DNA of 64,000 bases, from NCBI RefSeq assembly GCF_000225345.1, contig NC_015977.1, positions 2,029,501 through 2,093,500 of the forward strand. The letters run 5' to 3'. The notes beneath the pieces are model-generated. The model made no database searches. It was given only the letters and a program-made list of their open reading frames with translations, and was not told where the DNA came from. A program made the position numbers and the translations under genes. Positions 27,571 to 45,331 of the stretch are shown here, one piece after another (the first letter of the stretch is position 1; every line of letters starts with the position of its first letter). This stretch comes from Roseburia hominis A2-183 (lineage in GTDB: Bacteria; Bacillota; Clostridia; Lachnospirales; Lachnospiraceae).

Positions 27571-27571
27571 C

Positions 27572-27615: not shown

Positions 27616-27665
27616 CTCCCCAAAAACAGGAAGTTTTTTCTGACATTTATTTACCGAATCAGAGT

Positions 27666-27716
27666 AGGGTGTCAAAACGTTTGCATTTAAGTTTATAAAA
27701 CAAACGTTTTGACCCT
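27666..27716. mobile_element. 51-bp element made of two joined IS ends
   Basis: AGGGTGTCAAAACGTTTG (27666-27683) and its inverted partner CAAACGTTTTGACCCT (27701-27716) flank only 17 bases. The left side matches the end of the transposase remnant at 21.83 kb. CCGAATCA occurs on both sides (27653-27660, 27723-27730). This looks like an insertion sequence deleted down to its terminal repeats. The strong hairpin with AAACGTTT cores could also serve as a regulator site. Confidence 0.65.
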
Positions 27717-27730
27717 CCATATCCGAATCA

Positions 27731-27777
27731 TGAAAAAAGACAGAGTATCCAATTTTAGGACACTCTGTCTTTTTTTA
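27731..27777. terminator. Bidirectional terminator after the MFS transporter gene
   Basis: GACAGAGT-A-TCC and GGA-C-ACTCTGTC form the stem; runs of A on one side and T on the other give a T tract in both directions. It closes the long minus-strand operon. Confidence 0.88.
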
Positions 27778-27833
27778 TTCAACGTATCAACGCTTGAATT
27801 ATTCTTTCAACACACTAATCTTTTTCTTATTAA

Positions 27834-29102
27834 TTAAGCTTCTTTGTTGTTTGCTGCGCGGAATTTTACGATTCTTCTATCGGAAATAAATGCACAAACA
27901 AGACCAATTACCATAGCCAAAATACAGCTTAAGAAGATCTTTTTGTATCCACCTACAGGATCAGCTTCCAGCCATTTACCACATAATGATGTGTAGAATG
28001 TATCCGGAATGAATCCGATTAAGGATGAGATACCGATAACACTACCAACGATGTTCTTAGGTGTTCCTTCCTCATCTACTGTTGCGTAATACAGAGCACG
28101 GAATACATAGATCATCATAAGAGCAACTGTCATTACAACAAGCATTGGCCACATAACTGCTGTAGATGCTGGTAAGATTTCCATAACAATATATAAACCT
28201 GCTCCAACAACACCGGCTACGATCATAGGTTTTGTGGAACGTTTTAATTTAGTTGCTAAAATACCAGCTGCAGATGCAGCGATTAACTGTGTAACGATCT
28301 TGCTGTAGTTTGAATATAAAACACCGATTTTTACCGGTAATCCACAAATGTTCTGTAAGTATGGTGCAAAATAAGTTGTAGATGCAAGACACATAGATCC
28401 ACAGAAGATCATACCTGCTAACAGATAAGTAACTGGACACTTGAATGCAACACCCATCGCTTTGATACTGTCAAGTAATGTAGCATTTGTTGCATTTTCT
28501 GTATTCTTTGGCTTCGGCATTAAAACTGCTAAAAGAATACCGATCACGATCATAACAACTGAGATAATTGACACATTTAATCTCATTGCCTTTGTGCTGT
28601 CAGCTGCATTTACTGCATAAATAGATGTAAAGATAATAGTAAGAACCAGACCTGAAACACCACGTCCTGCTTCCAGGCTTCCGAACATACCACCCTGTTC
28701 TCCCTCATCAGCGAGCATGTTGACACATTTTACAGAAGAAGACCAGAATGTAAGTACGGTTGTTACTGCAAATAATATATGGATCAGTAACAGGATTGTG
28801 TAGCTTGGGAATGTTGCTTCCCAGAGACCAAGAACACCTGTTGAAACCATGGAAAATACAAGTAACTTCTTGCAGTCAAATTTATCTGCTACCCATCCAC
28901 CTGGCAGGTATAAAATAACGTTTGCAATACCATATACGTTTAATAATCTACCATAGTCAGCATCTCTTCCAATAAGACCCATAGCCTCCTGTAATGGTGT
29001 ATAGTATGTATACATCAGGTATGGCAACATATAAATGGTATTCATTGCCAGGATCATAAGAATCAGAGTAACTACTTTACTGCTTTTTGATTTTTGTGTC
29101 AT
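27834..29102 (-). CDS. MFS transporter
   Basis: The 422-residue protein is a major facilitator superfamily carrier with twelve predicted membrane helices. The loop 2-3 motif GGWVADKFDCKKLL corresponds to MFS motif A. The start at 29102 is chosen for GGAGGGG eight bases upstream; an earlier in-frame ATG lacks one. It is the last gene of the eleven-gene minus-strand operon, after the sodium:solute symporter. Two transporters in one operon suggest import of one compound and export of its product, but the substrates cannot be read from sequence. Confidence 0.85.
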   Translation of the reverse strand: MTQKSKSSKVVTLILMILAMNTIYMLPYLMYTYYTPLQEAMGLIGRDADYGRLLNVYGIANVILYLPGGWVADKFDCKKLLVFSMVSTGVLGLWEATFPSYTILLLIHILFAVTTVLTFWSSSVKCVNMLADEGEQGGMFGSLEAGRGVSGLVLTIIFTSIYAVNAADSTKAMRLNVSIISVVMIVIGILLAVLMPKPKNTENATNATLLDSIKAMGVAFKCPVTYLLAGMIFCGSMCLASTTYFAPYLQNICGLPVKIGVLYSNYSKIVTQLIAASAAGILATKLKRSTKPMIVAGVVGAGLYIVMEILPASTAVMWPMLVVMTVALMMIYVFRALYYATVDEEGTPKNIVGSVIGISSLIGFIPDTFYTSLCGKWLEADPVGGYKKIFLSCILAMVIGLVCAFISDRRIVKFRAANNKEA

Positions 29103-29136
29103 AACGTTTCCCCTCCACGTTTTCTCTATCATTATT

Positions 29137-30750
29137 TTATATGATTCCGTTATATGGCAGCGCCCAGCCGAATAAAAGGAAGAGTGTCACTGCAATTCCT
29201 GCTGCGATCAGAAGATATCCAAATACTTTGTCGATCTTGTAATCTTTTATTACCTTTTCAGACTCCGGTAATATCAGAAGTTTTTCCCGATATGCTTTTT
29301 CCTCCTCTGTCACCGGATGTAATTTTGATCCGAGTATCGCAAAAAAGAGGCTCAGGTAAATTCCAATAAAGAATGGGTCTAAAAAGTTAATAAATACAGT
29401 TGCAAATAATCCTACATGAAATCCAACCAGACATTTTGTAACAATGAATCCAACAAATCCGGCGATCATAGACCATCTCGCTCCGGTAGCGGAAAGCTTT
29501 TTACTTACCACACTTCCGATGGCGGAAACGCCCCAGCTTGCTGCGATGATCGTAGATGCAAAATAAGTAACGATGCGGACACTTCCGATTCCTGTATATG
29601 CTAACAGTAAGGAAATCGCACCGAGGATCAGCATTATCACTCTGCTGACAAATAACTGCTGCTTTTCACTTTTAAATTCCACAAAAACAATATCCGATGT
29701 AATAGAAAATCCAATGACCGACAGGAATGTGGATGCAGAAGATAATCCTGCTGCCATAATGCCGGCAAGCATCAATGTTCCGACGAACTTCGGCATTACA
29801 TGAAATGCTGCCCAGATCAGAACTCTCTGCGGATCTTCCATTCCAGGGTTAAGATTCAGTACGGTCACAGACTGCAGATTCAAATACATCAGGAAAATCA
29901 CCGTACATGCCGCTGCGATCGCACCTGCGCGGAATGTAACATGCTCGCTCTTTGCCATCATGTTACGTCCTGCCTGCCAAGGCGATACCGACACTGTAAT
30001 AAACCAGATAATTCCCATCGTCACTGCATACATCACTGCACCAAAAACATCTGTTGCCCCGGCTCCTGGAATATTGCCATGATAATCCAAAAGGTTCTCC
30101 GGAATGTTTGGATTATTCATGAGATTCTCCAGCAGATGACCAATTCCACCCTGTGCCTTGAAAACATAAGGACCGGCAATGATCGTCGCTATTAAAAATA
30201 CCATGAACATCATCGTATCCGTAAGAATAACTCCTTTCGAACCGGAATAAAAAGTAAAAGCGGTAAAACAAAACCATGCCAGGAAGAGACAGAGCTCATA
30301 AGAAAGCCCTGTCAGTTCCTGCATTAAAATTCCAACTCCGGTGATACATGAGAGCAAATACGCTGTGAGGGAAACTGCTGTAATAATTCCGGCAACTCTC
30401 CGGTTTTTCAGATCGCAGTAACGCGCTCCGAAATATTCCGGCATTGTTGTACATTCTGACCGCCTTAAATATCGTCCGAACATAAGTGGTCCGGCAATAT
30501 AACCCATTGCACACATGGAATTTAGCAATACCAGTGTTGTAATGTTGCCGGAATAGCACCATCCCTGGTCTCCCATGAACCCGTTTACCGAAAGCATCGA
30601 TGCAAACAGGGTTCCGGCGATCAAAATCGTCGGGGCATTTCTTCCACTGACATAATAGTCATTTACGTCCTTTACAGAACGACCTGCCCAGATTCCAACC
30701 ACTATGTAAACCAGTATGCTGACAACCACTCCTATAAAGAATATATTCAT
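29137..30750 (-). CDS. Sodium:solute symporter family protein
   Basis: This 537-residue protein belongs to the SSS family (SLC5/PutP/PanF-like), which takes up organic acids, amino acids or vitamins with Na+. About 13 membrane helices are visible, with the family-like N-terminal VKDVNDYYVSGRNAPT and the signature-region GIMAAGLSSASTFLSVIGFS. It would import the acid that the neighbouring CoA genes activate. Its ATG overlaps the stop codon of a 40-residue membrane peptide gene (ATGA), as for symporters that have a small partner subunit. Confidence 0.9.
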   Translation of the reverse strand: MNIFFIGVVVSILVYIVVGIWAGRSVKDVNDYYVSGRNAPTILIAGTLFASMLSVNGFMGDQGWCYSGNITTLVLLNSMCAMGYIAGPLMFGRYLRRSECTTMPEYFGARYCDLKNRRVAGIITAVSLTAYLLSCITGVGILMQELTGLSYELCLFLAWFCFTAFTFYSGSKGVILTDTMMFMVFLIATIIAGPYVFKAQGGIGHLLENLMNNPNIPENLLDYHGNIPGAGATDVFGAVMYAVTMGIIWFITVSVSPWQAGRNMMAKSEHVTFRAGAIAAACTVIFLMYLNLQSVTVLNLNPGMEDPQRVLIWAAFHVMPKFVGTLMLAGIMAAGLSSASTFLSVIGFSITSDIVFVEFKSEKQQLFVSRVIMLILGAISLLLAYTGIGSVRIVTYFASTIIAASWGVSAIGSVVSKKLSATGARWSMIAGFVGFIVTKCLVGFHVGLFATVFINFLDPFFIGIYLSLFFAILGSKLHPVTEEEKAYREKLLILPESEKVIKDYKIDKVFGYLLIAAGIAVTLFLLFGWALPYNGII

Positions 30751-30869
30751 GCAACATCCTCCTTATCTTTTCTAACCTTTTTTTCCTCTTTCCCAAGGAC
30801 GAAAATCATAAGGATTCCTGAAGCGATCAGACAGCCTCCAACTACGACTGAAAATAGTATTTCTCCCAT
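30747..30869 (-). CDS. 40-residue single-span membrane peptide, putative symporter partner
   Basis: A short frame starts with MGEILFSVVVGGCLIASG, contains one membrane helix (about residues 5-25) and ends in a charged tail KEEKKVRKDKEDVA. GGAGGATGATACG precedes the ATG and the stop overlaps the symporter start by the ATGA arrangement, so it is very likely translated and coupled to the symporter. Some SSS carriers, such as PanF with YhdT, are encoded with a small membrane protein; this one shows no clear sequence match to those. Function is inferred from position. Confidence 0.72.
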   Translation of the reverse strand: MGEILFSVVVGGCLIASGILMIFVLGKEEKKVRKDKEDVA

Positions 30870-30899
30870 CGTATCATCCTCCATTTCTGTCTCCAGAAA

Positions 30900-32039
30900 C
30901 TATTTCAGCAAATTTCCTGCAATTACCATCTTCTGGATCTCAGAAGTGCCTTCATAGATTTCTGTGATCTTAGCGTCACGCATCATTCTTTCTACTGGAT
31001 AATCTCTTGTATATCCATATCCACCGAATAACTGTACTGCTCTCCAGGTAACTTCTCTTGCTGTTTCAGAAGCGAATAATTTAGCCATAGCAGCTTTGTC
31101 AGAGTATGGTTCGCCGTTATCTTTTGCACAAGCAGCGCTATATACAAGGTATCTAGCAGCTTCTACTCTTGTCTTCATATCAGCAAGTGTGAATTTTGTA
31201 TTCTGGAATGCTGCGATAGGACGTCCAAACTGTTCTCTTGTCTTAACATATTCTACAGCTGCGTCTAATGCGCCTTCAGCAATACCAAGTGCCTGTGCAG
31301 CGATACCGATACGTCCGCCATCAAGAGTTGCCATAGCAATCTTGAATCCTTTGTTAACTTCTCCCAAAAGGTTTTCCTTCGGAACTTTTACGTTTTCGAA
31401 AATCAGCTCGCATGTAGAAGATCCACGGATACCCATTTTCTTCTCATGACTTCCAAAGCTGAATCCTTCCCATCCTTTTTCTACGATGAAAGCACTGATT
31501 CCTTTGTTTCCAAGTTCTTTGTTTGTCATTGCAAATACAACGTAAACATCAGCAACTTCACCGTTTGTGATGAAGATCTTGCTTCCGTTTAATAAGTAGT
31601 GATCGCCTTTGTCTTCTGCAACTGTTCTCTGTCCAGCAGCGTCAGATCCAGCGCCCGGCTCAGTAAGACCGAAAGCACCAAGTTTTTCACCAGATGCAAG
31701 ATCTGGAAGGTATTTCTGTTTCTGTTCTTCTGTTCCGAATGCTTCGATTGGCCAGCAGCATAAAGATGTATGAGCTGAAATTGTAACACCTGTGCTTGCG
31801 CATGCTTTAGAAACTTCTTCTACTGCAAGAACGTAAGACATATTGTCTGCACCTGCTCCGCCGTACTCTTCAGCGACCGGGATTCCGAGAAGTCCTGTTT
31901 CTCCAAGCTGTGGAATCAGTTCTTCCGGGAAGCGCTCCTGCTCATCTAACTCTGCAGCGATTGGTTTGACAAACTGCTCTGTAAATTCAACGAACATGTC
32001 TTTCATTAACTGCTGGTCTTCATTTAATTTAAATTCCAT
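30900..32039 (-). CDS. Acyl-CoA dehydrogenase, butyryl-CoA dehydrogenase type
   Basis: The 379-residue flavoprotein is a short-chain acyl-CoA dehydrogenase. Seen are the FAD/substrate motif [13 protein letters not shown] (about 124-136), [19 protein letters not shown], the dimer-region [12 protein letters not shown], and the C-terminal IYEGTSEIQ with the catalytic Glu. With EtfAB, encoded directly upstream in the operon (55 bases), it could oxidise or reduce acyl-CoA, and a Bcd/Etf complex in Clostridia can couple enoyl-CoA reduction by NADH to ferredoxin reduction. In this cluster it is one of two acyl-CoA dehydrogenases. Codon use is AT-rich and strongly biased, as for highly expressed genes. 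Confidence 0.92.
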
Positions 32040-32093
32040 AGTGTTTTACCTCTCTTCTCTTACTTTTTTAATCAAAAAACCTCTGGCTACTTC

Positions 32094-33107
32094 TTATAAC
32101 CCTTTGTATTTTCTGATCTTTTCTGTCAGAATTGGCAGAACTACTTTCAGGTCTCCAACAAGACCGTAATCAGCCACATTGAAAATTGGTGCATCTGGAT
32201 CTTTGTTGATTGCAATGATCACGTCAGAGCTGCTCATACCGGCAAGATGCTGAATTGCTCCGGAAATTCCGCAGGCAATGTAGATCTTTGGTCCAACTGT
32301 TTTACCAGTCTGGCCTACCTGGTGTGCATGTGGGATCCATCCTGCATCAACAGCTGCTCTGGATGCTCCTACTGTAGCACCTAATACTTCTGCAAGCTCT
32401 CTTACAGGTGCAAAACCTTCTGGTCCGCCTACTCCACGTCCACCGGAAACGATGATTTCTGCGTTTTCCAGATCAACGAGTTCCCCTGCCATCTCATTGA
32501 TCACTTCGAGTAACTCTACACGTTTTTCTGCATCTGTGATCTCAACTTTTTCTTTGATCACCGGAATGTCTTTTACTTCACCTGGTTCACTCTTCTTGAA
32601 TACGCCAGGTCTGACTGTTCCAAGCTGTGGTCTGTGGTCAGGACACATAATTGTTGCCATCAGGTTTCCACCGAATGCAGGTCTTGTCCATGCCATGTTG
32701 CCTGTCTCATCATCAATATCTAATGCTGTACAGTCTGCTGTTAAACCAGTTCCAAGTCTGCAGGAAATACGAGGTCCGATGTCTCTTCCGTTATTTGTAG
32801 CACCGATCAGCATTACGGATGGTCCGTATTTTTCGATCAGTTCGCAAAGAACTTTTGCATAAGCATCTGTGTTATAGTGCTTTAATTCAGGCTGATCCAC
32901 AACGATTGCTTCGTCAGCGCCGTGTGCTTTTACAGCTTCGAGTGCTGGTGCAACATTGCTTCCTAAAATTACTGCAACAAGTTTTCCGTTCTGTTTATCT
33001 GCAAGTCTTCTACCTGGAACGAGTAACTCAAGTCCTACGCTTTTCGCAGTACCTTCATCCTCTGTTTCGATAAAGACCCAAAGATCCTTTGTCTTTTCTA
33101 CCGCCAT
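32094..33107 (-). CDS. etfA: Electron transfer flavoprotein alpha subunit
   Basis: EtfA (337 residues) binds FAD and passes electrons between acyl-CoA dehydrogenases and other carriers. The C-terminal FAD domain is clear: IVSGGRGVGGPEGF, GASRAAVDAGW, HQVGQTGKTV, IYIACGISGAIQHLAGM and INKDPDAPIF. It follows etfB by 14 bases. The pair is separate from the FixA/FixB pair encoded on the opposite strand. Whether it carries the second, bifurcating FAD would depend on EtfB residues that I cannot judge with certainty. Confidence 0.95.
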   Translation of the reverse strand: MAVEKTKDLWVFIETEDEGTAKSVGLELLVPGRRLADKQNGKLVAVILGSNVAPALEAVKAHGADEAIVVDQPELKHYNTDAYAKVLCELIEKYGPSVMLIGATNNGRDIGPRISCRLGTGLTADCTALDIDDETGNMAWTRPAFGGNLMATIMCPDHRPQLGTVRPGVFKKSEPGEVKDIPVIKEKVEITDAEKRVELLEVINEMAGELVDLENAEIIVSGGRGVGGPEGFAPVRELAEVLGATVGASRAAVDAGWIPHAHQVGQTGKTVGPKIYIACGISGAIQHLAGMSSSDVIIAINKDPDAPIFNVADYGLVGDLKVVLPILTEKIRKYKGL

Positions 33108-33121
33108 CTCTTTTCACCTCC

Positions 33122-33931
33122 TTAAAATACTTTATCTTCGCAGAGAATGGCAAATAATTTTTCTGCGCCTTCTTCTGATGTCGGTTCATTGATCTTCACA
33201 CCTGAAGTTTTTACTTCTGGGGTAAATGTTTTCTTAACCTTTGTTGGAGAACCTTTTAATCCGATTCTCTCATTATCCATACCAGCTTCTAAGTCTGCAT
33301 AGGCGAGAACATTGATCTCTGCTTTCTTTGCAGCCATCTTGGATTTGATGGTAGGGAATCTAGGATCGAAGGATGGTTTTGTTACGGTGATCAGACATGG
33401 GTAAGAAACTGCAACCTTTTCAAATCCGGCTTCTACTTCTTTCTTGATCACAAGTCTGTCTTCCTCAGCTTCTGCTTCGATCGCATATGTTACCTGTGGA
33501 AGTCCGATATGCTCAGCGATTTCAGGTCCAACCTGTGCTGTATCACCATCAATTGCCTGTTTTCCACAGAAGATGATGTCGAATTTTCCTTCTAATTCTT
33601 CTAATTTCTTAATTGCGCAGGAAAGAATGTAACTTGTTGCAAGTGTATCACTTCCTCCAAATTCTCTTCCGCTGACAAGGTATGCTTTGTCTCCGCCTAC
33701 AGCAAGACACTCTCTTAAAGCATTCTCTGCCTGTGGTGGTCCCATAGATACTAATGTAATTTTCGTACCTGGTTCTTTATCTTTGATTCTTGCTGCGAGT
33801 TCCAATGCGTATGCATCAAATGGATTGACAATACTTGGTACTCCTTCGCGAATCAGTGTTTTCTTTACCGGATCGATACGGATTTCTGTCGTATCCGGTA
33901 CCTGCTTAATGCAGACAAGAATATTCTTCAT
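33122..33931 (-). CDS. etfB: Electron transfer flavoprotein beta subunit
   Basis: EtfB (269 residues) is the partner of EtfA. Family features include NILVCIKQVPDT at the start, IVNPFDAYALELAARIKD, LVSMGPPQAENALRECLA, and the AMP/FAD-binding stretch IIFCGKQAIDGDTAQVGPEIAEHIG. The C-terminal recognition loop follows SKMAAKKAEINV. GGAGGATATTTGCA precedes the start. It lies 26 bases after the CaiA-like gene and 14 before etfA, so the dehydrogenases and ETF are co-expressed. Confidence 0.95.
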   Translation of the reverse strand: MKNILVCIKQVPDTTEIRIDPVKKTLIREGVPSIVNPFDAYALELAARIKDKEPGTKITLVSMGPPQAENALRECLAVGGDKAYLVSGREFGGSDTLATSYILSCAIKKLEELEGKFDIIFCGKQAIDGDTAQVGPEIAEHIGLPQVTYAIEAEAEEDRLVIKKEVEAGFEKVAVSYPCLITVTKPSFDPRFPTIKSKMAAKKAEINVLAYADLEAGMDNERIGLKGSPTKVKKTFTPEVKTSGVKINEPTSEEGAEKLFAILCEDKVF

Positions 33932-33957
33932 TGCAAATATCCTCCATTCCTCTCTCT

Positions 33958-35112
33958 TTATTTATATTTCTTTAATACCTGACGGCTTGCAATAACTGTC
34001 TGAATCTCACCTGTTCCACCGGAAATACGTGTGATTCTTAAGTCTCTATAAATACGGCTTACGCGGCTTCCGCAGTATCCGATTCCGCCCATTACCTGGA
34101 GTGCATGGTCAGCGATATCATTTGCAGATTCAGAACAGAACTGTTTTGCAATAGATGCCTCTGCTCTTGTCAGGCAGTTGTTATCTTTGTTCCATGCGTA
34201 GTGAAGAAGCATATTTCTCATAGCTTCGATCTTCATGGTCATTTCCATGATATGGTTCTGGATCAGCTGTAAACGTCCGATCTCCTGACCTTTTACGATT
34301 CTCTGGTTTGCGTATCTGCATGCATCTTCGTATGCACATAATGCCTGTCCATATGCGTTGAATGCATCGATCAGACGCTCGTAATCAAAACCTTTGGATG
34401 TTGCCATTAATCCGTTTCCTTCGAAGCTGAACATATCGCTTTCTTCGATCTCAACATCATCAAACCAGATGTCGTTTACGTTTTCCATGTTTAATCCCAT
34501 TTTTTCCATTGGCTCTTTCTTGCAGCCTGGAACGTTTGTAGGAACAAACCATAATGTAAGCTGTTCTGGATTCTCGCTGTTTTTAGCAAGTGTCAGACAG
34601 TAATCATTGTCCTGTGCTCCGGAAATGAAATGTTTGTGTCCATTGATGTATACTTTTCCGTTACGACGTGTATAAGTTGTAAGGATTGTATTGCTGGATA
34701 ATTCAGTACCTGCAGTTGGTTCTGAGAATCCCTGTGCGAATGCTCCGTTTCCTTTGAAGAATAAAGGCATGAATTTATCGATCTGCTCTTTTGTTCCATT
34801 CTCTAAAAGTGCATCAGCTTTTACATGATCCCAGAAAAGGTAGATTGGTGCGCCACAGCGTCCTAAAGCTTCCATTACGAGGAACATTGTAACTGCGCCT
34901 TCGCCGCCACCTGGTTCTCCGTCTTCTCCTTCAGCTTCTTCTGGTAAGAACATACTAAAGCATCCGAGCTCTTTTAAGATTTCCCACCATTTCTCTGGAT
35001 GTGTGTGGTTTTTGTCACAGTCCTGGAAGTAAGGCTCAAGATTTTCTCTTGTCATAGCCTCTTCGATTGCCTGTACCATTAATTCCTGTTCTTCTGTAAT
35101 TCTGAAATCCAT
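33958..35112 (-). CDS. CaiA-like acyl-CoA dehydrogenase (enoyl-CoA reductase)
   Basis: The 384-residue protein is an acyl-CoA dehydrogenase of the branch containing crotonobetainyl-CoA reductase CaiA. Motifs include AQGFSEPTAGTELSSN, KHFISGAQDNDYCL and ALQVMGGIGYCG. At the C-terminus the classical catalytic Glu position (YEGTSEIQ in the neighbouring paralogue) reads ISGGTGEIQ, so the base is replaced by glycine. That suggests a role mainly in the reductive direction or another base. With CaiB-, CaiC-, CaiD- and Fix-like partners all present, it most likely reduces the double bond of an unsaturated acyl-CoA. The natural substrate is unknown. Confidence 0.85.
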   Translation of the reverse strand: MDFRITEEQELMVQAIEEAMTRENLEPYFQDCDKNHTHPEKWWEILKELGCFSMFLPEEAEGEDGEPGGGEGAVTMFLVMEALGRCGAPIYLFWDHVKADALLENGTKEQIDKFMPLFFKGNGAFAQGFSEPTAGTELSSNTILTTYTRRNGKVYINGHKHFISGAQDNDYCLTLAKNSENPEQLTLWFVPTNVPGCKKEPMEKMGLNMENVNDIWFDDVEIEESDMFSFEGNGLMATSKGFDYERLIDAFNAYGQALCAYEDACRYANQRIVKGQEIGRLQLIQNHIMEMTMKIEAMRNMLLHYAWNKDNNCLTRAEASIAKQFCSESANDIADHALQVMGGIGYCGSRVSRIYRDLRITRISGGTGEIQTVIASRQVLKKYK

Positions 35113-35186
35113 ATTATTTCCTCCATTATTTTTCTTAATTATATTTTACATGGTTTCTTTTTTCATTCCATGCCAAACACTTGTTA

Positions 35187-35963: not shown

Positions 35964-35995
35964 AATTGTCACCTCATTTTTTCTATCATTTACAG

Positions 35996-36622
35996 CTATC
36001 TGCACATCTTCAGATAGCTGTTATGTGCTCTTTCCCACTTCAATGTGGTTGTGTCGCCATGTCCGGGACATAGGGTAATGTCCTCTATGGCAAGATGATT
36101 AATTTTTCTCAGGCTCTGCATCATCTGGCGCTCATTTCCACCTTCAAAGTCCGTTCTTCCGATACTTCCCTGGAAAATCGTATCTCCGGTAAAGATTGCA
36201 TCCTTTGTCAGAAACAGAACGGATCCCGGCGTATGTCCCGGTGTTTCCATCACAGTGATCTCTGTTCCTGCGATCACCAGCTCCTGTCCATCTTCGATCG
36301 TCTTCACATTCTTAAATGCCCTGACTGTCGGGAACTGCTGTCCCATATCATACTCCGTAAGACTCTCCGGAATATCCTTTGCATTGCAATACACCGGAAT
36401 CTCTTTCCATCGTTCCTGCAGCTTCGGTACCGCAAGAATATGATCGTAATGACCATGTGTCAGAAGAATTGCTTCCGGACAGATCTGCTTTTCCTCCAGG
36501 ATGGAGATCAGCTTTTTCGGATTATCTGCAGGATCAACGAGAAATCCTCTTCCCGGTTCCTGTCCTTCTGCAATATAACAGTTTGTGATAAATGCCCCTA
36601 CCGGGACTCTGATTATCTGCAT
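35996..36622 (-). CDS. Metallo-beta-lactamase-fold hydrolase (glyoxalase II-like)
   Basis: The 208-residue protein has the binuclear metal motifs LLTHGHYDHI (HxHxDH), METPGHTPGS, FTGDTIF and LCPGHGD. Glyoxalase II-type members hydrolyse thioesters, and placement between CoA-transferase and enoyl-CoA hydratase genes suggests an acyl-CoA or thioester hydrolase that releases product or rescues trapped CoA. Stop and next start are 32 bases apart. The substrate is not defined by the sequence. Confidence 0.85.
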   Translation of the reverse strand: MQIIRVPVGAFITNCYIAEGQEPGRGFLVDPADNPKKLISILEEKQICPEAILLTHGHYDHILAVPKLQERWKEIPVYCNAKDIPESLTEYDMGQQFPTVRAFKNVKTIEDGQELVIAGTEITVMETPGHTPGSVLFLTKDAIFTGDTIFQGSIGRTDFEGGNERQMMQSLRKINHLAIEDITLCPGHGDTTTLKWERAHNSYLKMCR

Positions 36623-36665
36623 CTTTCCTCCTACGCAAAACCTGTATTCTATCTGTGATCCAAGA

Positions 36666-37880
36666 TTAAATCATGCTGCTTCCGACAACACCGTCTGCAA
36701 AGAGCTGGTCAATCTTTTCTTCGCTGTATCCAAGTCCTGCAAGAATCTCTCTGCTGTCTTCGCCAAGAAGTGGTGCTCCTCTCCAGATCGGGCATAACTC
36801 GTCGTTGAACCGGATCGGATTGTTATAGAATCTCATCTGTCCAATCTTTTCCTGATCAACAAGTGTTGTCGTCTCTGTTGAATTTGCATGTTCTGAAGTA
36901 TATGCTTCAATAAAAGGAAGTACTTCAGATGCCGGTACCCCGGCTTCTGTCAGGCGTTTTTCTATCTCGCTCCGTTTATAAGTAACGGTTACTTTTTCAA
37001 GTTCTTCTACCAGGCTGTCCCTGTTTGCGATTCTTGCCGCGTTATCTGCAAATCTTGGATCGTCTTTTAAGTGTCCGGCATCTAATGCATCACACATCTT
37101 TGCCCAGCGTTCCTCGCTGTCTGCAATGATAACTGCCCAGCCGTCTCTTGCTTCGAAAATTCCGTATGGTGCGGTGAAGCGGTCATGATTACCGAATCTT
37201 GACTGTGTATAAGTTCCTTTTCCGTAATCGACAACAGTCTCACCACAGGAGATCATTACCGTATCCATCATACCGATATCAACTCTGCATCCCTCTCCTG
37301 TCTTACGTGCCTGGATCAGGCCGATCAGCGCTGCGTTTAATGCGTGTGTTCCGGTTAAGGTATCACAATTTGCATTTCCTGCTTTCATTGGTGCACCGTC
37401 CGGTTCTCCGTTGCTTCCTGCAAATCCGCCGCGGGCTGCTGCGATTGCATCATAACATGGATATTTTTTCAGAGGTCCTGTCGCTCCGAATCCGCTCAGT
37501 GATACGAACACGATCTTTGGATTGATCTTTTTCAGTTCTTCGTATCCAAGTCCCAGTCTGTCAATGGAACCGCTCTTGAAGTTTTCAAGTACGACATCTG
37601 CTTCCTTTACCATATCGTAGATGACCTGTTTGCCTTCCTGAGAAGACAGATCCAGCTCAATGCTCTGCTTATTCTTATTATATGCTGTATAAAGAGTACT
37701 TAATCCGTTTACGAATGGATCCCATGTTCTTGCCTGGTCGCCGCTGCCGTAGCGCTCTACTTTCCAGACTTCAGCTCCCATATCTGCAAACTGCCATGCC
37801 ACATATACACCTGCAAGTGCAATCGTAAAATCAAGCACTTTTACATCTTTCAATGGTCCCTTTCTGTTCTCTGTTCCCAT
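36666..37880 (-). CDS. Class III CoA-transferase (CaiB/BaiF family), catalytic Asp present
   Basis: Family III CoA-transferases move CoA from one acid to another through an aspartyl-CoA thioester intermediate. The 404-residue protein shows KVLDFTIALAGVYVAWQFAD, AYNKNKQSIELDL, VSLSGFGATGPLKKYPCYD and, at residue 173, the expected catalytic Asp in NCDTLTGTHALNAAL. With the ligase CaiC-like enzyme it would activate the incoming acid: the ligase primes with ATP and the transferase recycles CoA from the reduced product. Fifteen bases separate it from the second, atypical CoA-transferase gene upstream. Confidence 0.92.
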   Translation of the reverse strand: MGTENRKGPLKDVKVLDFTIALAGVYVAWQFADMGAEVWKVERYGSGDQARTWDPFVNGLSTLYTAYNKNKQSIELDLSSQEGKQVIYDMVKEADVVLENFKSGSIDRLGLGYEELKKINPKIVFVSLSGFGATGPLKKYPCYDAIAAARGGFAGSNGEPDGAPMKAGNANCDTLTGTHALNAALIGLIQARKTGEGCRVDIGMMDTVMISCGETVVDYGKGTYTQSRFGNHDRFTAPYGIFEARDGWAVIIADSEERWAKMCDALDAGHLKDDPRFADNAARIANRDSLVEELEKVTVTYKRSEIEKRLTEAGVPASEVLPFIEAYTSEHANSTETTTLVDQEKIGQMRFYNNPIRFNDELCPIWRGAPLLGEDSREILAGLGYSEEKIDQLFADGVVGSSMI

Positions 37881-37895
37881 AGCCTTTGACTCTCC

Positions 37896-39023
37896 TTATT
37901 CTACACCGTATTCTGTCAGAACTGCCTGCGTATCTGCACCAAGCACATGACCAGGTTCTATGTTATCAAGATCATCCGCACCGGAGAACTTCGCCGGAAT
38001 TCCGATCTGTGTCTCTCCGCCTACCGTGATCATCATTCCACGGTCTGCAACCTGTTCATCCTTCATCAGCTCTTCTACTGTATTGCAAGGTCCGCCAGGT
38101 ACCATTGCCCTGCGGCAGATCTGATCTGCTTCATCAATTGAGATCGTTGCAAAATAGTCTTTTAACTGCTGGTCAAGTTCTCCGAAGTAATGCTTCATGG
38201 AACGATCCGGGTCGTGTGCATATACGCTTCCCTCTCCCCAGTCATCCCTGCCGGCCTCTCTTGCAAAGTCAAGCCACTGTTTATCGCTTCCGATACTTAA
38301 AGCGAACCAGCCGTCCTTACAGTGGAATGTGTCAGTCGGGTTCGTTGTCGGGAATCCGTTGCCGAGACGTCTAGGTAACACATTCAGTCCCTGCATACAT
38401 TCTGCAAAAGTATCATCAAGCTCCATCATCGTATGCCATGAGCTTACGGAAACTTTACTGCCCTCGCCGCTCTCTTCTGCTTTCAGATATGCAGCCATCA
38501 TTCCGGCTGTGAGATGCCAGCTTGCATAAATGTAAGCCAGTGGGAAACCAAACTTTGTCGGTCTCTCCGGAAAACCGGTCTTCTCAAGCAGTCCGCATTT
38601 TGCCATAACGATCAGGTCATAGTCAGGACAATCTTTCCATGGTCCTTCTTTACCAAATGGTGTTAACACTCCGTAAATAAGCTTCGGATTCACTGCTTTT
38701 AAGTTCTCGTACCCCAATCCGAGTCTTTCCATATAATCTTCCTGTTTATTTACCGCTACCATATCACATTTTGCTGCAAGCTTTCTTACGATCTCCTGAC
38801 CGTCTGCTGTTGTGTAATCAATTGCAATACTCTTCTTGCCGCGCAGATAGTACTGTGCATATGGTCCTTCTTCCTCCGGTGTTCCTCCCCGGCGCCGGAT
38901 ATCATCGCCGCCCTGTGGCTTTTCCACCTTAAGTACTGTTGCCCCGTAATCTGCAAACACGCTTCCGATATACGGGTTTCCCTCAGTGAGATCCAATACC
39001 GATACTGCTTCCAAAGGTTTCAT
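37896..39023 (-). CDS. Class III CoA-transferase paralogue lacking the catalytic Asp
   Basis: The 375-residue protein has the same fold (VLDLTEGNPYIGSVFADYG, LRGKKSIAIDYTTADGQ, GVLTPFGKEGPWKDCPDYD) as its neighbour, but aligning around the shared GEG segment puts tyrosine 166 (AYIYASWHLTAG) where the neighbour has Asp173. Without that Asp it should not form the covalent intermediate. It may be the non-catalytic partner of a heteromeric transferase, or have another function. The start at 39023 has a strong AGGAGG. It is the first gene of the eleven-gene operon. Confidence 0.88.
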   Translation of the reverse strand: MKPLEAVSVLDLTEGNPYIGSVFADYGATVLKVEKPQGGDDIRRRGGTPEEEGPYAQYYLRGKKSIAIDYTTADGQEIVRKLAAKCDMVAVNKQEDYMERLGLGYENLKAVNPKLIYGVLTPFGKEGPWKDCPDYDLIVMAKCGLLEKTGFPERPTKFGFPLAYIYASWHLTAGMMAAYLKAEESGEGSKVSVSSWHTMMELDDTFAECMQGLNVLPRRLGNGFPTTNPTDTFHCKDGWFALSIGSDKQWLDFAREAGRDDWGEGSVYAHDPDRSMKHYFGELDQQLKDYFATISIDEADQICRRAMVPGGPCNTVEELMKDEQVADRGMMITVGGETQIGIPAKFSGADDLDNIEPGHVLGADTQAVLTEYGVE

Positions 39024-39186
39024 GATAACCTCCTCCTGTTTTGTTTGACGTCCGAACAATTCATTTTCGTTTCAAACATTTCGTTTTATTTTTATCATAC
39101 TTCTATTATTTCGTTATTTTGAATAAATTGCAAGCTTTTTTTTTATTTTTTTTCGATATTTTTTTCAATTATTTACAGTTTTATTG

Positions 39187-39215
39187 TTGACACCGCGCTT
39201 TATTCATAATAAGAT
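39187..39215 (+). promoter_or_regulatory. Promoter of the fixA operon in the divergent control region
   Basis: TTGACA (39187-39192) and TAAGAT (39210-39215) with a 17-base spacer, leaving a leader of about 180 bases before fixA. The whole 39024-39400 gap is very AT-rich and separates the two divergent operons; no gene is seen in it. A minus-strand TATGAT near 39097-39103 with TTCAAA 18 bases upstream is a weaker candidate for the other operon. Confidence 0.7.
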
Positions 39216-39222
39216 AAGCTTA

Positions 39223-39254
39223 CAAATTTAACATTTTGTCCCGTTTTAAATTTG
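39223..39254. promoter_or_regulatory. Inverted repeat just after the fixA promoter
   Basis: CAAATTTAA (39223-39231) and TTAAATTTG (39246-39254) separated by 14 bases at the expected transcription start. It may be an operator or leader stem-loop. Confidence 0.5.
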
Positions 39255-39400
39255 TTTCATTTTTCAAAATTGTTTTTTTACCATACAATTTTTAAACAAT
39301 TCAAGACAATTTGAGACGACGCATGGTATTGTATCTTCTATTTCTATGATTGAAACAGTTTAAAACACCACAAAAAATAATTTTAGGAGCAGGTGAGCAA

Positions 39401-40165
39401 ATGAAAATTATTACATGTTGTAAAGTAGTACCGGATGAAGAACAGATCAAAGTTCTTCCTAACAGAGAGCTGGCTCTTGATGATGTACCAGCAAAAATCA
39501 GTCAGTATGACTTAAACGCCCTTGAAGCAGCAAAGAAGCTTTCTGCAGAGACAAAGGGTTCCGTTACCGCATTAAGCGTTGGTTCTTCCAAAGCTCTTGA
39601 TGCAACAAAGATCCGTAAAGATATCCTTTCCCGTGGTGCAAATGATTTAAAACTTGTGATCAGCGACGATCACAGCTTCTCTGATTCTTTTGAAACAGCA
39701 AAAGCTCTTGCAGCAGCAATCCGTGAGCAGGAAGAAGTTGACCTCGTTCTTTGCGGAACCGGTTCTTCCGATCTCTACAATCAGGTAACAGGTATCCAGC
39801 TTGGTACATTACTTGACTGGCCAACCTTAAACAACGTAACTTCCATCCAGCCAAACGGTGATACCGTTCTTGTTGAGCGTACTCTTGAGAACAGCACTGA
39901 AGTTTTTGAAGTAGCACTTCCAGCAGTTCTTTCCGTTTCATCTGAGATCAACGTTCCGACTGTTCCAGCTATGCGTGATATCATGCAGGCAGGTAAAAAA
40001 CCGGTTGCAGTTCTTACTACAGATCTTGCAGATTTAAACGCTTCTGCATCTACTCTTGAGCAGCTTGCTCCAGAACAGCAGGAGAGACGTCAGGAAATTA
40101 TCGAAGGAGACAACGAAGAAGCAGTAGACGCTTTAGTTGCTTTCCTTAAGAAAGAAGCTTTATAG
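39401..40165 (+). CDS. fixA: FixA-type electron transfer flavoprotein beta subunit
   Basis: The 254-residue protein is an EtfB homologue of the FixA/CaiA-partner branch: MKIITCCKVVPDEEQI, ISQYDLNALEAAKKL, ALSVGSSKALDATKIRKDIL and LVLCGTGSSDLYNQVTGIQLG. FixAB in carnitine-reducing bacteria delivers electrons to the enoyl-CoA reductase. The start at 39401 is placed after AGGAGCAGGTGAGCAA. FixC and FixX are absent here, so electrons must come from another donor. Codon use is AT-rich and uniform, suggesting strong expression. Confidence 0.88.
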   Translation: MKIITCCKVVPDEEQIKVLPNRELALDDVPAKISQYDLNALEAAKKLSAETKGSVTALSVGSSKALDATKIRKDILSRGANDLKLVISDDHSFSDSFETAKALAAAIREQEEVDLVLCGTGSSDLYNQVTGIQLGTLLDWPTLNNVTSIQPNGDTVLVERTLENSTEVFEVALPAVLSVSSEINVPTVPAMRDIMQAGKKPVAVLTTDLADLNASASTLEQLAPEQQERRQEIIEGDNEEAVDALVAFLKKEAL

Positions 40166-40186
40166 GCTTAAAGGAGGATTTTAGAT

Positions 40187-41095
40187 ATGCAATCTTATGT
40201 AATTAGTGAAAATAATGCTTTATTATCCGAACTCTGTGCCGGAGCAAGAAACGTTGCTTCCGATGTTACAGCTGTTGTTTTCGGTGATGGTGCAGCTGCA
40301 GCTGAGTGTGGAGCAGACCACATTCTTACATGTCCATTAGAAGAATCCGGTTCTCCGGAAGATTTTGCAAAAGCTATCGCAGAAGAGATTTTAAAATCTG
40401 ATGCTGCCTGCGTTCTTGTTGGAAATACAATCCTTGGACGTGCTCTTGCAGGAAAACTCAGTGTTTACTTAAACACAGCAGTGTTCGCAACCATCTCTTC
40501 TCTTACTTCTGAAGACGGTAAACCATGCTTCGAGCGTACTGTATTCGGTGGAACAGCTGTTAACAAACAGGTGATTGAAACAGCTTACAGTGTATTCACT
40601 GTAAACAGCGGAATCTTCGCAGCAGCAGAAGGAACAGGTGCCTGCACAGACATCGCTCCAATCGCCGGTGCTGCATCCGCAAGCTTAAAACGTGTTTCTA
40701 AAGATGAGAAACGTGAAACAGCTGTAAACCTTGTTGCTGCAAAACGTATCGTCGATGTCGGCCGTGGACTTGCTGCACAGGAAGATCTTGCTATGTGTGA
40801 GAAGCTGGCTTCTGCTATCGATGGTGAAGTTGGATGTTCCCGTCCAATCGCTGAGAACAACAAATGGTTACCAAAATCTTCCTACATGGGAATCACAGGT
40901 GTTCAGGTTAAGCCAGATCTTATCATCTGTACTGGTGTATCCGGACAGGTTCAGCATATCGGTGGTATCAACAAATCCAAAGTGATCGTTGCTATCAATA
41001 AAGATAAGTCCGCACCTATTTTCAAAAACTGTGACTTTGGACTTGTTGGAGATATGTATAAGATCATCCCACTTTTAACGGAAAAATTATCCTAA
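40187..41095 (+). CDS. fixB: FixB-type electron transfer flavoprotein alpha subunit
   Basis: The 302-residue EtfA homologue pairs with FixA. The C-terminal FAD domain is intact: IVDVGRGLAAQEDL, GCSRPIAENNKWLP, YMGITGVQVKPDLIICTGVSG-type stretch, QHIGGINKSKVIVAIN and APIFKNCDFGLVGD. It follows fixA by 21 bases with AAAGGAGGATTTT. Length is close to E. coli FixB. It is the second ETF in the cluster, distinct from the EtfBA on the other strand, so two electron routes may serve the two acyl-CoA dehydrogenases. Confidence 0.9.
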   Translation: MQSYVISENNALLSELCAGARNVASDVTAVVFGDGAAAAECGADHILTCPLEESGSPEDFAKAIAEEILKSDAACVLVGNTILGRALAGKLSVYLNTAVFATISSLTSEDGKPCFERTVFGGTAVNKQVIETAYSVFTVNSGIFAAAEGTGACTDIAPIAGAASASLKRVSKDEKRETAVNLVAAKRIVDVGRGLAAQEDLAMCEKLASAIDGEVGCSRPIAENNKWLPKSSYMGITGVQVKPDLIICTGVSGQVQHIGGINKSKVIVAINKDKSAPIFKNCDFGLVGDMYKIIPLLTEKLS

Positions 41096-41110
41096 TGAAA
41101 GGCAGAAATC

Positions 41111-42658
41111 ATGACTGATATTGCAGGTAACCGCACTCTTTCCTCTCAATGGAATGAGACTGTACAATTTTATGGTAATCAGAATTTTCTGGAATATATT
41201 TCAGTTGATGACCAGCTTACCAGCTACACTTATTCTGAATTTCACTACCGTGTTATTCAGACAGCAAACTGGTTTCATTCGCTAGGAATCCGTAAAGGCG
41301 AACTGGTGGCACTTCATCTGCACAATTCACCAGAATATCTGATGTGCTGGCTTGCACTTGCGCAGATCGGCGCTGTATCCGTTCCGCTGAATGAGCACTA
41401 TCGCCTGCAGGAAAGCAAATTCGTCCTTCAGAAATGTGATATCCATCGCATTATCGTTGAGCCGTCTTCCCTTCCTATTTATCAGTCCAATAAAGAAGAT
41501 TTACTACTCTCTACCATTATTTTAGCCTGGGGAGAATGTCCGGATCCGGACATTCTCTCTCTTTCAGCAAGTAGTTTTTTTGACGGCAGCCGACTGGACG
41601 AATCCTGCGAGATTCTTCCGGAGGATACTGCCGTCATCCTATTTACCTCTGGAACAACGCAGTACCCGAAAGGCGTGATCTATACGCACTGCAATGTCGT
41701 ATATGGTGGTATTATCCATATGCAGCAGATTGGCATGTGCCCCGGAGACCGTTTTCTTTCGTGTATGCCATGTTACCATATGGATTTTCAGGAAATGGCT
41801 GCTATGTCCGTCATTGTTGCCGGCGGTACACTGATCATGGTAGAGCATTACAGCGCACATAAATTCTGGAAACAGATCTGTGATACAAAAGCAAACTTTA
41901 CAGATACCATGTCCATTATGAACCGGACACTGATGCTGCAGCCTGTACAACCATGGGAGCAGGATCATTGTCTGAAACAGGTCTATTTTTCTATGGGATT
42001 AAGCACAGAAGAAAAAGATGAATTCGAACGTCGATTCCACGTTCAGCTTCTGAACTCCTATGGAATGACAGAAACGATTTCTGCCGTTACCTGTTCTCCG
42101 ATCTCCGGTGATAAAAACTGGCCTTCTGTAGGGCGCGCTGCTTTATCTTATGATATCAAGATCATCGACTGTGACGGAAAGGAAGTTGCCCCGGGTAAAA
42201 CCGGTGAGATCTGTGTCCACGGTATTCCGGGTCGTTCTCTTACACCAGGATATTACAATGACCCAGGTGCGACAGAATGTCTTCTGGACAAAGATGGATG
42301 GCTTCATTCCGGTGACAGAGGATATATAGACGAAGCCGGCTGGCTCTTCTTTATCGATCGTTGGGGAAATATGATCAAACGATCCGGCGAAAATATCAGC
42401 AGCCTGGAAGTAGAATGTGTTCTCACTTCCCACCCAAAAATTGCTGATGCTGCCGTAATCGGCATTCCGGATCCAATCCGCAACCAGGCAGTAAAAGCAT
42501 TTATTCAGTTTGCCGATGGAGAAAGCCTGACGATTGCAGAATTAGAACAGTATTGCAGTGACCGGCTTTCCAAATTTAAGGTTCCTACTTTCTGGCAGTT
42601 TGTAGATGACTTTCCGCGAACAGCTACCGGAAAGATTAAGAAAAAAGAGCTAAAATAA
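41111..42658 (+). CDS. CaiC-like acid-CoA ligase (AMP-forming)
   Basis: This 515-residue adenylate-forming enzyme activates a carboxylic acid with ATP and CoA. Seen are the P-loop ILFTSGTTQYPKGVIYTH (about residues 178-195), NSYGMTET, the hinge GWLHSGDRGYIDEAGWLFFIDR and the C-terminal lysine motif PRTATGKIKKKELK. The length and domain order match betaine/carnitine-CoA ligase CaiC and caffeate-CoA ligase CarB. It lies 15 bases after fixB, in the same operon. Confidence 0.9.
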   Translation: MTDIAGNRTLSSQWNETVQFYGNQNFLEYISVDDQLTSYTYSEFHYRVIQTANWFHSLGIRKGELVALHLHNSPEYLMCWLALAQIGAVSVPLNEHYRLQESKFVLQKCDIHRIIVEPSSLPIYQSNKEDLLLSTIILAWGECPDPDILSLSASSFFDGSRLDESCEILPEDTAVILFTSGTTQYPKGVIYTHCNVVYGGIIHMQQIGMCPGDRFLSCMPCYHMDFQEMAAMSVIVAGGTLIMVEHYSAHKFWKQICDTKANFTDTMSIMNRTLMLQPVQPWEQDHCLKQVYFSMGLSTEEKDEFERRFHVQLLNSYGMTETISAVTCSPISGDKNWPSVGRAALSYDIKIIDCDGKEVAPGKTGEICVHGIPGRSLTPGYYNDPGATECLLDKDGWLHSGDRGYIDEAGWLFFIDRWGNMIKRSGENISSLEVECVLTSHPKIADAAVIGIPDPIRNQAVKAFIQFADGESLTIAELEQYCSDRLSKFKVPTFWQFVDDFPRTATGKIKKKELK

Positions 42659-42696
42659 TGTATTCACAAACGTAAAAACGTAAGGAGGCCTATTAG

Positions 42697-43905
42697 ATGA
42701 AGTATGATTTTACAAGTATTTTAAACCGCGACGGCATGGATGCAATTGCAGTAAATCCGCCTATGAATGCCAGCTGGATCTCATTTGCACCGATCAAAGA
42801 AGGCTTTGATCTGATCCCGATGTGGGTAGCAGACATGAACTTCCCAACAGTACCAACGATACAGGACGCTATTATCGAGCGCACGAAGCACCCTGCTTTC
42901 GGATATTTCCGCCCACGTCCTGAATATTTTGAATCCATTATCAACTGGCATAAGTTAAGAAACGGTGTAACCGGGTTATCTGAGGAACATATCGGATATG
43001 AAAACGGTGTTCTCGGCGGCGTGATCAGCGCATTAAGTGTTTTATGCTCGAAGGGTGATTCTGTTTTATTTCATTCTCCTACATACATTGGTTTTACAGC
43101 CAGTCTGACAAATAATGGCTACAATATGGTCCTGAGTCCACTTGTACGCGATGAAAATGGGGTTTGGCGTATGGACTATGAAGACATGGAGCGTAAGATC
43201 AAAGAAAATCATATCCATGCTGCTGTTTTCTGTACCCCGCATAACCCAACCGGTCGTGTATGGGAGCGTTGGGAAATAGAAAGAGCAATGGAACTCTTCC
43301 AAAAATATGATGTATTTGTTATTTCTGATGAAATCTGGTCTGACCTTATCTTAAATGGCCACAAGCATATTCCAACACAGTCTGTGTCTGAAGATGCAAA
43401 AAACCGTACCATTGCATTATATGCACCATCTAAGACATTCAACCTTGCCGGTCTGATCGGTTCTTATCATATTATTTATAATTCATGGCTGAAGGATCGC
43501 ATCGACAAAGAATCTTCCCTCTGCCATTACAACGACATGAATGTCTTATCCATGCACGCATTGATCGGTGCTTATAAGCCGGAAGGTCATGAATGGGTAG
43601 ACGAATTATGCGAAGTATTAACAGAAAATGTCAATATCGCATATGACTTCTTCAGCAACATTGATGGTATTGATACTGCAAAACCAGAAGGTACTTATAT
43701 GCTTTTCCTTGACTGTAAAGGCTGGTGTACTGCACACAACCAGACATTAGAAGACCTTTACAAAAAAGGACAGTCTGTCGGTGTCTACTGGCAGGATGGA
43801 CGACCATTCCATAATGAGTATGGAATCCGTGTAAACCTTGCTCTTCCAAAGAGCCGTGTTGAAGAAGCATTAAATCGACTCAGAAACTATGTTTTCTGTG
43901 ACTAA
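42697..43905 (+). CDS. Second MalY/PatB-type PLP-dependent enzyme
   Basis: The 402-residue protein is a fold-type I PLP enzyme of the C-S lyase/aminotransferase branch, like the one encoded at 23831-25012 but clearly diverged. Motifs include IPMWVADMNFP, FCTPHNPTGRVWERW, FVISDEIWSDLIL and the PLP lysine in APSKTFNLAGL. It is the last gene of the fixA-fixB-ligase operon with its own AAGGAGG. Its presence links amino-acid or cysteine-conjugate cleavage to the CoA pathway: it could release the acid that the ligase activates. Confidence 0.85.
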   Translation: MKYDFTSILNRDGMDAIAVNPPMNASWISFAPIKEGFDLIPMWVADMNFPTVPTIQDAIIERTKHPAFGYFRPRPEYFESIINWHKLRNGVTGLSEEHIGYENGVLGGVISALSVLCSKGDSVLFHSPTYIGFTASLTNNGYNMVLSPLVRDENGVWRMDYEDMERKIKENHIHAAVFCTPHNPTGRVWERWEIERAMELFQKYDVFVISDEIWSDLILNGHKHIPTQSVSEDAKNRTIALYAPSKTFNLAGLIGSYHIIYNSWLKDRIDKESSLCHYNDMNVLSMHALIGAYKPEGHEWVDELCEVLTENVNIAYDFFSNIDGIDTAKPEGTYMLFLDCKGWCTAHNQTLEDLYKKGQSVGVYWQDGRPFHNEYGIRVNLALPKSRVEEALNRLRNYVFCD

Positions 43906-43948
43906 AGCTTTTTCCTATATAATATATATTTACCATATTCTTTCGCTG

Positions 43949-44022
43949 CAGCCGGGTTCCTCCCCGGCTGTAAATTTTATCCAAAAAAGCAGAATGTTTG
44001 CAAATCAAACATTCTGCTTTTT
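43949..44022 (+). terminator. Double terminator after the fixA operon
   Basis: Two stems: CAGCCGGG/CCCGGCTG (43949-43970) and GCAGAATGTTTG/CAAACATTCTGC followed by TTTTTA (43989-44022), with A on the other side so that it can act on both strands. 44023-44191 shows no gene. Confidence 0.85.
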
Positions 44023-44191
44023 ATTTCTTATCAAAAATCCCTACGCCAAATTTCCCCAGTCCTCTATTCATAGTTCTTTAAAACATTCCGTATAACTATT
44101 TCATCTCTACATCAGCATTTTCAAAAAGAAAGAGCCGCTGTATAAATACAGTGACCCCCTCTTGGAATGAATATCGATTTATGTATGTAGA

Positions 44192-45305: not shown

Positions 45306-45331
45306 ATCTTTTGTACATTTCTTATATCCTT

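Follow-up and report, generated by a model that had tools for sequence, protein, structure and literature searches.

A divergent gene cluster in Roseburia hominis resembles the cai/fix system and is a candidate anaerobic electron sink for a cationic acid

In the carnitine genes of Escherichia coli, fixABCX runs one way and caiTABCDE the other. Emergencia timonensis converts gamma-butyrobetaine to trimethylamine with its bbu/gbu cluster, for which the parts of the published account available to us give six genes, including the BCCT carrier BbuE, the ferredoxin BbuD and a thioesterase, and list no ligase or electron-transfer flavoprotein (ETF). BbuD is not considered essential in one report (PMC10989800). 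Other systems with related enzymes are the E. coli ydi operon (ydiFOQRST-fadK), annotated as putative, the Bcd-EtfAB complex of butyrate formation and the Acetobacterium woodii car operon for caffeate reduction. The car operon contains a ligase, a bifurcating-type ETF and an acyl-CoA dehydrogenase. We describe a divergent cluster of 14 genes in a 64,000-nucleotide stretch of Roseburia hominis A2-183 (contig NC_015977.1, positions 2,029,501 to 2,093,500; hereafter, the window). We give about even chances to its being a gut-clostridial variant of cai/fix in which a small cationic acid serves as the electron sink of anaerobic growth, with L-carnitine or crotonobetaine as the first candidate.

The cluster extends from the first open reading frame start at 27834 to the last end at 43905 (window coordinates), exactly where a sequence-only reading of the same DNA had placed it. 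That reading was confirmed only in part, as it had counted 15 genes, eleven of them on the minus strand. We counted 10 minus-strand and four plus-strand open reading frames between these ends. An eleventh minus-strand gene was rejected on this count and on gap lengths, since the longest minus-strand intergenic gap is only about 150 bp. Gene families were assigned with Pfam and NCBIfam models, and bit scores were compared with the model cut-offs. The assignments agree with the families named earlier, which were a symporter, a ligase, CoA-transferases, a hydratase, a hydrolase, two acyl-CoA dehydrogenases, ETFs and a MalY enzyme.

On the plus strand, fixA (39401..40165, small ETF subunit, with its start corrected to ATG 39401 by reading the sequence by eye) is followed by fixB (40187..41095, large ETF subunit), a caiC-like acid-CoA ligase gene (41111..42658) and a gene for a PatB/MalY-type pyridoxal phosphate enzyme (42697..43905; PatB model 290 bits, cut-off 340), an accessory gene that ends the run. 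The minus-strand run reads outward from caiB2 (37896..39059, with a probable start at ATG 39023, also read by eye) through caiB1 (36666..37880), both of which encode family-III CoA-transferases, and a glyoxalase-II-like hydrolase of the metallo-beta-lactamase fold (MBL) that is a possible thioesterase (35996..36622; Lactamase_B 90 bits, with glyoxalase-II-like PDB matches). It continues with a CaiD-like crotonase/enoyl-CoA hydratase (35187..36005, probably starting at ATG 35963 as judged from the translation), a caiA-like enoyl-CoA reductase (33958..35112), etfB (33122..33931, small subunit), etfA (32094..33107, large subunit; Pfam ETF and ETF_alpha) and acd, which encodes an acyl-CoA dehydrogenase of the butyryl-CoA dehydrogenase type (30900..32039). 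The run ends with an SSS-family sodium/solute symporter, likely for uptake (29137..30750; Pfam SSF 105.9 bits), and an MFS transporter for uptake or product export (27834..29132; Pfam MFS_1 75 bits). The AT-rich region between the two runs (39060..39400), defined by reading the sequence, is presumed to be regulatory.

In the proposed route, which would run in the reductive direction, the SSS symporter would bring the acid in, and CaiC would prime it as a CoA ester using ATP. CaiB1 and CaiB2, acting as one heteromeric CoA-transferase, would pass CoA from the product to fresh substrate. The crotonase would dehydrate the 3-hydroxyacyl-CoA to the enoyl-CoA, CaiA would reduce it with electrons from FixAB, and the saturated acid would exit. 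Acd and the bifurcating-type EtfBA probably couple a second, crotonyl-type reduction to ferredoxin.

The cai/fix reading is based on the 39-47% identities of CaiA, CaiC, CaiD and FixAB to their E. coli relatives, the divergent layout, the CaiC score and the CaiA clade. The ligase scored 636.7 bits on the CaiC equivalog NF005947, which is 14 bits short of the cut-off of 651, while the next model reached 368; it is 41% identical to E. coli CaiC. CaiA is 43% identical to E. coli CaiA and scored 413 bits on equivalog NF002885, below the cut-off of 540, yet this was its best model (the YdiO-type model gave 404). In a tree of 39 hand-picked proteins, one branch (100/100) set the 13 cluster-type CaiA rows apart from the rest. 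The E. coli and actinobacterial CaiA proteins were their sister group (89/82), with YdiO outside the fork. The cluster-type branch is long and separate, at 0.75 changes per column. FixA is 47% identical to E. coli FixA and passed the cut-off of subfamily NF002888 (238 bits against 219), and its score of 278 bits on the YdiQ-type model lies under that model's cut-off of 338. FixB is 39% identical to both E. coli FixB and YdiR. The hydratase (ECH_1 218 bits) is 41% identical to E. coli CaiD and keeps both catalytic Glu positions. Among the NCBIfam models, one for a general crotonase subfamily fits it best (256 bits), and the CaiD equivalog NF002936 came third with 205 bits against a cut-off of 500. 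The interpretation offered earlier was therefore partly supported. A CoA-dependent enoate reduction like that of cai/fix is well supported by the identities and the layout, but its combination with the car pathway was not borne out, because Acd scored 563 bits against Clostridioides difficile Bcd (5ol2_C) and 380 against CarC.

Pocket residues were compared to narrow the substrate. The Asp of the HMD motif in CaiC is present in all 18 cluster rows and in E. coli CaiC, with Thr in FadK. Among the homologues longer than 450 aa (119 of the 120 matches listed), this position is Asp in 118 and Asn in 1. In 4-coumarate-CoA ligase, the residue presumed to align with it is Tyr239 of the acyl pocket. 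For CaiA, 36 cluster-type rows longer than 360 aa among the 38 matches listed were set against 22 true-CaiA rows (E. coli and 21 others) and 22 other relatives, the latter and the 21 being hand-chosen from the listing. Position 94 is Trp in 36/36 cluster-type rows and Tyr in 22/22 true-CaiA rows, and position 254 is Tyr throughout both groups. YdiO has Thr at both positions, and the other relatives mostly have Gly and Leu. At position 249, all cluster-type rows have Asp and all true-CaiA rows have Val; position 95 is Asp in 34 and Glu in 2 cluster-type rows, and Gln in every true-CaiA row. The aromatic residues at 94 and 254 would fit a cation cage. Since the CaiC pocket keeps its Asp and the CaiA pocket has both aromatic and acidic positions, the substrate is likely a positively charged acid. 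Carnitine would be the best single guess, with other cations possible. Of the substrates suggested in the sequence-only reading, carnitine-like betaines would fit the pocket best, plant hydroxycinnamates fit it worse, and thio-acids are a minor rival.

The two family-III CoA-transferases, CaiB1 (CoA_transf_3 367 bits) and CaiB2 (278 bits), are 32% identical to each other over 254 residues. They are 29% and 24% identical to E. coli CaiB and scored 180 and 85 bits on the CaiB equivalog NF002914 (cut-off 413), with other family-III models scoring higher. At the catalytic position, presumably Asp169 in the numbering of CaiB, CaiB1 has Asp in 18/18 cluster rows. CaiB2 has Asp in none of 18 rows (Tyr in 17, Ser in 1), and its homologues longer than 340 aa (118 of the 120 matches listed) have Tyr in 114, Phe in 2 and Ser in 2. 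According to PMC8364193, BbuB and BbuC of Emergencia are 30% identical, make gamma-butyrobetainyl-CoA only jointly and bind each other. From the missing Asp in CaiB2 and the likeness to BbuB/BbuC, we infer by analogy that CaiB1 and CaiB2 form one split, heteromeric CoA-transferase. The two transferase genes noted earlier are indeed present, but they are better read as encoding a single enzyme with its Asp only in CaiB1.

The gene set recurs in other genomes. Scanning genome contigs turned up 41 loci, of which 24, at 68-95% identity, were analyzed further. The other 17 were dropped; they come from Noviherbaspirillum, Rhodococcus, Nocardia and Actinomadura, with identities of 26-29%. Eight core genes (caiC, fixB, fixA, caiB2, caiB1, the crotonase gene, caiA and acd) were all found in 15 of the 24 loci (the full loci), so the set is not a chance one. 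Several of the nine non-full loci are short contigs. A head-to-head arrangement of fixA and caiB2 is seen in 14 of the 15 full loci, with L024 as the exception. Truncated contigs explain some of the gene absences among the full loci. The MBL hydrolase is found in 13/15, SSS in 11/15 (two of the other four are cut by a contig end), EtfAB in 10/15 with a varying position, and MFS in 9/15. The MalY gene at 42697 was rejected as a core gene, as none of the genes in the 15 full loci matched it best. The MalY enzyme proposed earlier thus exists as a PatB/MalY-type gene, but core membership did not hold.

Several side observations were made on these loci. CaiA is much better conserved between loci (68-95% identity, mostly 85-95%) than partners such as FixB and MBL, which are mostly at 50-63%. 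The locus of Eubacterium sp. 14-2 (L026) is a decayed remnant in which the matches to caiC, etfB, the hydratase gene and caiA are broken. A LacI-type regulator family is present in 12/24 loci (one Pfam-checked, the rest grouped by similarity); in contrast, a gene of the MarR type lies at 27076 in the window. It seems that one type of regulation has replaced another between the window and the related loci. A YitT-family membrane protein follows SSS in at least 9/24 loci (L003, L004, L011, L013, L015, L016, L018, L019 and L021; Pfam-checked in L004 only), and none is found there in the window.

Acd is 64-65% identical to the genome's own Bcd. Its identification as AcrC (acryloyl-CoA reductase) was rejected, as the own Bcd is nearly equal on the AcrC model (539 against 512 bits). 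EtfB scored 212-254 bits against five chains of ETFs taken to be bifurcating, and 57-107 bits against the other five. FixA was weak against all of these chains (44-89 bits for the bifurcating ones, 54-66 for the rest). An RnfC_N-domain gene is present in the genome, but the domain also matches in 9/14 control genomes, so no Rnf complex can be claimed from it. The genome has two Bcd-type genes: the cluster acd and one at 602,746, which precedes etfBA and follows two genes read by eye as thl and hbd. This separate bcd-etfBA lies at 602.7-605.8 kb, and the stretch with its thl/hbd-like genes spans 600-606 kb. No thl or hbd was found in the cluster with Pfam and NCBIfam. At E <= 1e-8, the genome has one other crotonase gene, located at 2,588,772.

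The cluster is part of a roughly 29.5-kb accessory region (20315..49800). Similarity to same-genus genomes stops on the left at 20.31 kb (G053 and G049) and on the right at 49.80 kb (G053, G020, G046 and G049). GC content in 2-kb steps is 0.37-0.47 inside this region and 0.47-0.56 in the window flanks. GC over 219 kb sampled from the genome is 0.487 (48.5% for A2-183 in PMC4645204), but other sampled stretches reach 0.33, and low GC is no proof by itself. No clean empty site turned up: the flanks lie on different contigs in G053, G020 and G046, and in G049, which carries the cluster, a single contig holds both at a distance of about 81 kb. In genome sets that are samples of larger groups, CaiA occurs in 2/60 genomes of the genus (2/30 near-complete; E <= 1e-90), own included, and, at E <= 1e-140, in 1/391 genomes of the class, which is the R. 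hominis genome itself. CaiB2 occurs in 1/299 genomes of the family, again own only (E <= 1e-80). A joined-protein tree of six cluster proteins from the window and the 15 full loci pairs the window with a locus labelled Lachnospiraceae (L003; 100/99). These two group with seven other loci at 100/100, labelled Oscillospiraceae or Pygmaiobacter (5), Clostridiaceae (1) and uncultured bacterium (1), and without the metagenome-assembled genome of the same genus, Roseburia (L012). Because the window groups with loci of other families rather than with this Roseburia genome, the tree suggests transfer between families.

Other features of the accessory region lie around the cluster. Three adjacent genes at 22580-25403 encode an M20 amidohydrolase, the C-S lyase PatB and a Rid-family protein. 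They have the look of a module for releasing thiols from N-acyl cysteine conjugates and removing 2-aminoacrylate. Two full-length acetyl-esterase-like genes lie at 44192-47825 with a fragment of a third between them (45768-46268); the first (44192..45199, minus strand) scored 382.8 bits on NF007547 (cut-off 389). A weak integrase-core match, below the Pfam cut-off, is found at 48590-49156 by the right edge. Terminator-like stems follow the last plus-strand gene (43947-44022); the region has 15 of them and shuffled sequence 12.1, which is no clear excess. Promoter-like matches also showed no excess (34 against 38.5 in shuffles), and no promoter is claimed.

Other explanations were weighed against the carnitine-like one. 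The same chemistry could act on a different cation, either a betaine or a hydroxy or enoic acid that carries an amine, guanidino or imidazole group, held by the additional acidic residues of the pocket. Asp249 and Asp/Glu95, invariably acidic in the cluster-type rows and replaced by Val and Gln in all true CaiA, favor this, as do the kept CaiC Asp, the missing BCCT carrier and the long CaiA branch. We consider it somewhat unlikely, since CaiC comes within 15 bits of the carnitine-ligase cut-off and the neighbor genes point to no particular substrate. A search with SSS gave only two weak PDB matches and no substrate, and no MttB-type demethylase was found in the genome at E <= 0.001. Similar doubt, and no more than a tentative place, goes to a broader proposal of a so far undescribed CoA-dependent, respiration-like pathway, with a split transferase, a CaiA with an acidic, non-carnitine pocket, a ferredoxin link through bifurcating Bcd-EtfBA, and spread between families as an island. 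Reduction of neutral plant acids such as hydroxycinnamates, as in the Acetobacterium car pathway, would use the ligase, enoyl-CoA reductase and bifurcating-type ETF that are all present, and the acetyl-esterase-like genes within the fetched flanks of 11/15 full loci could release ester-bound acids. It is improbable, as Acd is Bcd-like and not CarC-like, on which ground a car-like pathway was rejected, and as the acidic CaiA pocket and an Asp in the ligase pocket would be unexpected with a neutral acid.

In another explanation, thio-acids from cysteine S-conjugates cleaved by PatB/MalY lyases would be activated, lose sulfide and be reduced. PatB-type genes occur twice in the accessory region, the cluster MalY included, and within the fetched flanks of 5/15 full loci. 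Three of the four scanned (L004, L007, L010 and L024) pass the PatB cut-off; L024, which is cut short, does not. The M20-PatB-Rid module also fits, and in L010 PatB is likewise followed by M20. We rate this explanation as quite improbable, since the remaining 10 full loci show no PatB, three of the five that do are a single lineage (L004, L006 and L007), no gene of the full loci matches the window's own MalY best, and a PatB-type gene lies inside the fixAB-caiC run in 0/15 of them. Lastly, the genome paper (Travis et al., PMC4645204) counts hydratase, butyryl-CoA dehydrogenase and ETF genes as butyrate location ii, with two non-identical copies. With only two Bcd-type genes in the genome and the other crotonase elsewhere, this second location must correspond to the present cluster. 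Acd is a true Bcd homologue, 64-65% identical to the other copy, but its genes keep company with CoA-transferases, a ligase, CaiA and FixAB, an association recurring in 15 loci. Moreover, thl and hbd are putatively with the bcd-etfBA at 600-606 kb instead of in the cluster, and this CaiA is rare within the genus. A second locus for butyrate synthesis is therefore highly improbable.

A number of points weigh against the carnitine-like cai/fix variant. CaiT, CaiE, FixC and FixX are all missing from the 14 genes, and the sequence-only reading was right that no BCCT-type carrier is present, as none was found in the cluster with Pfam and NCBIfam or in the genome at E <= 0.001. Acd and EtfBA have no role in the known carnitine route; EtfBA was unseen in 5/15 and SSS in 4/15 full loci, some of which are cut short. 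The CaiA, CaiB and CaiD cut-offs were missed widely, and the hydratase and both transferases prefer other models. CaiA is 42% identical to YdiO, nearly as close as to CaiA, and the fork that joins it to CaiA (89/82) sits under the 95 mark. Asp249 and Asp95 may mean a cation other than trimethylammonium, or one placed elsewhere, and the pocket positions themselves depend on alignment and presumed residue numbering.

Gut conversion of carnitine to gamma-butyrobetaine, a trimethylamine feedstock, is mostly credited to cai-bearing Enterobacteriaceae (PMC10653785). A study of transplant patients places its carnitine pathways in Enterobacteriaceae alone (PMC11520286), though PMC10989800 mentions multiple taxa. 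A gene-screening database requires all six caiTABCDE genes and recommends 50% identity (PMC11857547). Such screening would probably miss the cluster, because its CaiA-D relatives are 24-43% identical and CaiT is absent. Among top-ranked matches in the openly licensed PubMed Central literature, we recognized no description of the cluster in Roseburia or other gut Clostridia, and a word search for carnitine in the main text of three Roseburia papers (PMC5622956, PMC7478625 and PMC9784577) found no occurrence. The kind of pathway is known, and this variant is, as far as searched, new within that literature. The earlier claim of an undescribed pathway holds to this extent, apart from the genome paper's assignment of some of the genes to a butyrate locus. 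If carnitine or a similar cation is handled, a prominent butyrate producer joins the list of converters. If the substrate is not carnitine-like, the cluster is a gut electron sink still awaiting its substrate. The published reading of the hydratase-Bcd-ETF genes as a spare butyrate set is put in question.

Among the known systems, the butyrate Bcd-EtfAB complex is of the enzyme type of Acd and EtfB, but the cluster has no thl/hbd and stands apart from the genome's own bcd-etfBA. The A. woodii car system shares a ligase, a bifurcating-type ETF and an acyl-CoA dehydrogenase, although Acd is closer to Bcd than to CarC. With the E. coli ydi operon, the cluster shares a CaiA-type dehydrogenase, a FixAB-type ETF and a ligase; it has no relative of YdiF, YdiS or YdiT, and its CaiA groups with CaiA over YdiO. 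The bbu/gbu system shares with the cluster a pair of dissimilar class-III CoA-transferases (identity 30% in Emergencia and 32% in the cluster) and, as a key enzyme, a member of the acyl-CoA dehydrogenase superfamily. The cluster differs in having a ligase and ETFs and no BCCT carrier, and no ferredoxin was found among its 14 genes. Compared with E. coli cai/fix, the cluster is without CaiT, CaiE, FixC and FixX, has the CaiB1/CaiB2 pair in place of a single CaiB, and has an extra Acd, EtfBA, MBL hydrolase, SSS symporter and MFS transporter. Relatives of CaiA, CaiC, CaiD and FixAB are common to both, and they are arranged in the same kind of divergent layout.

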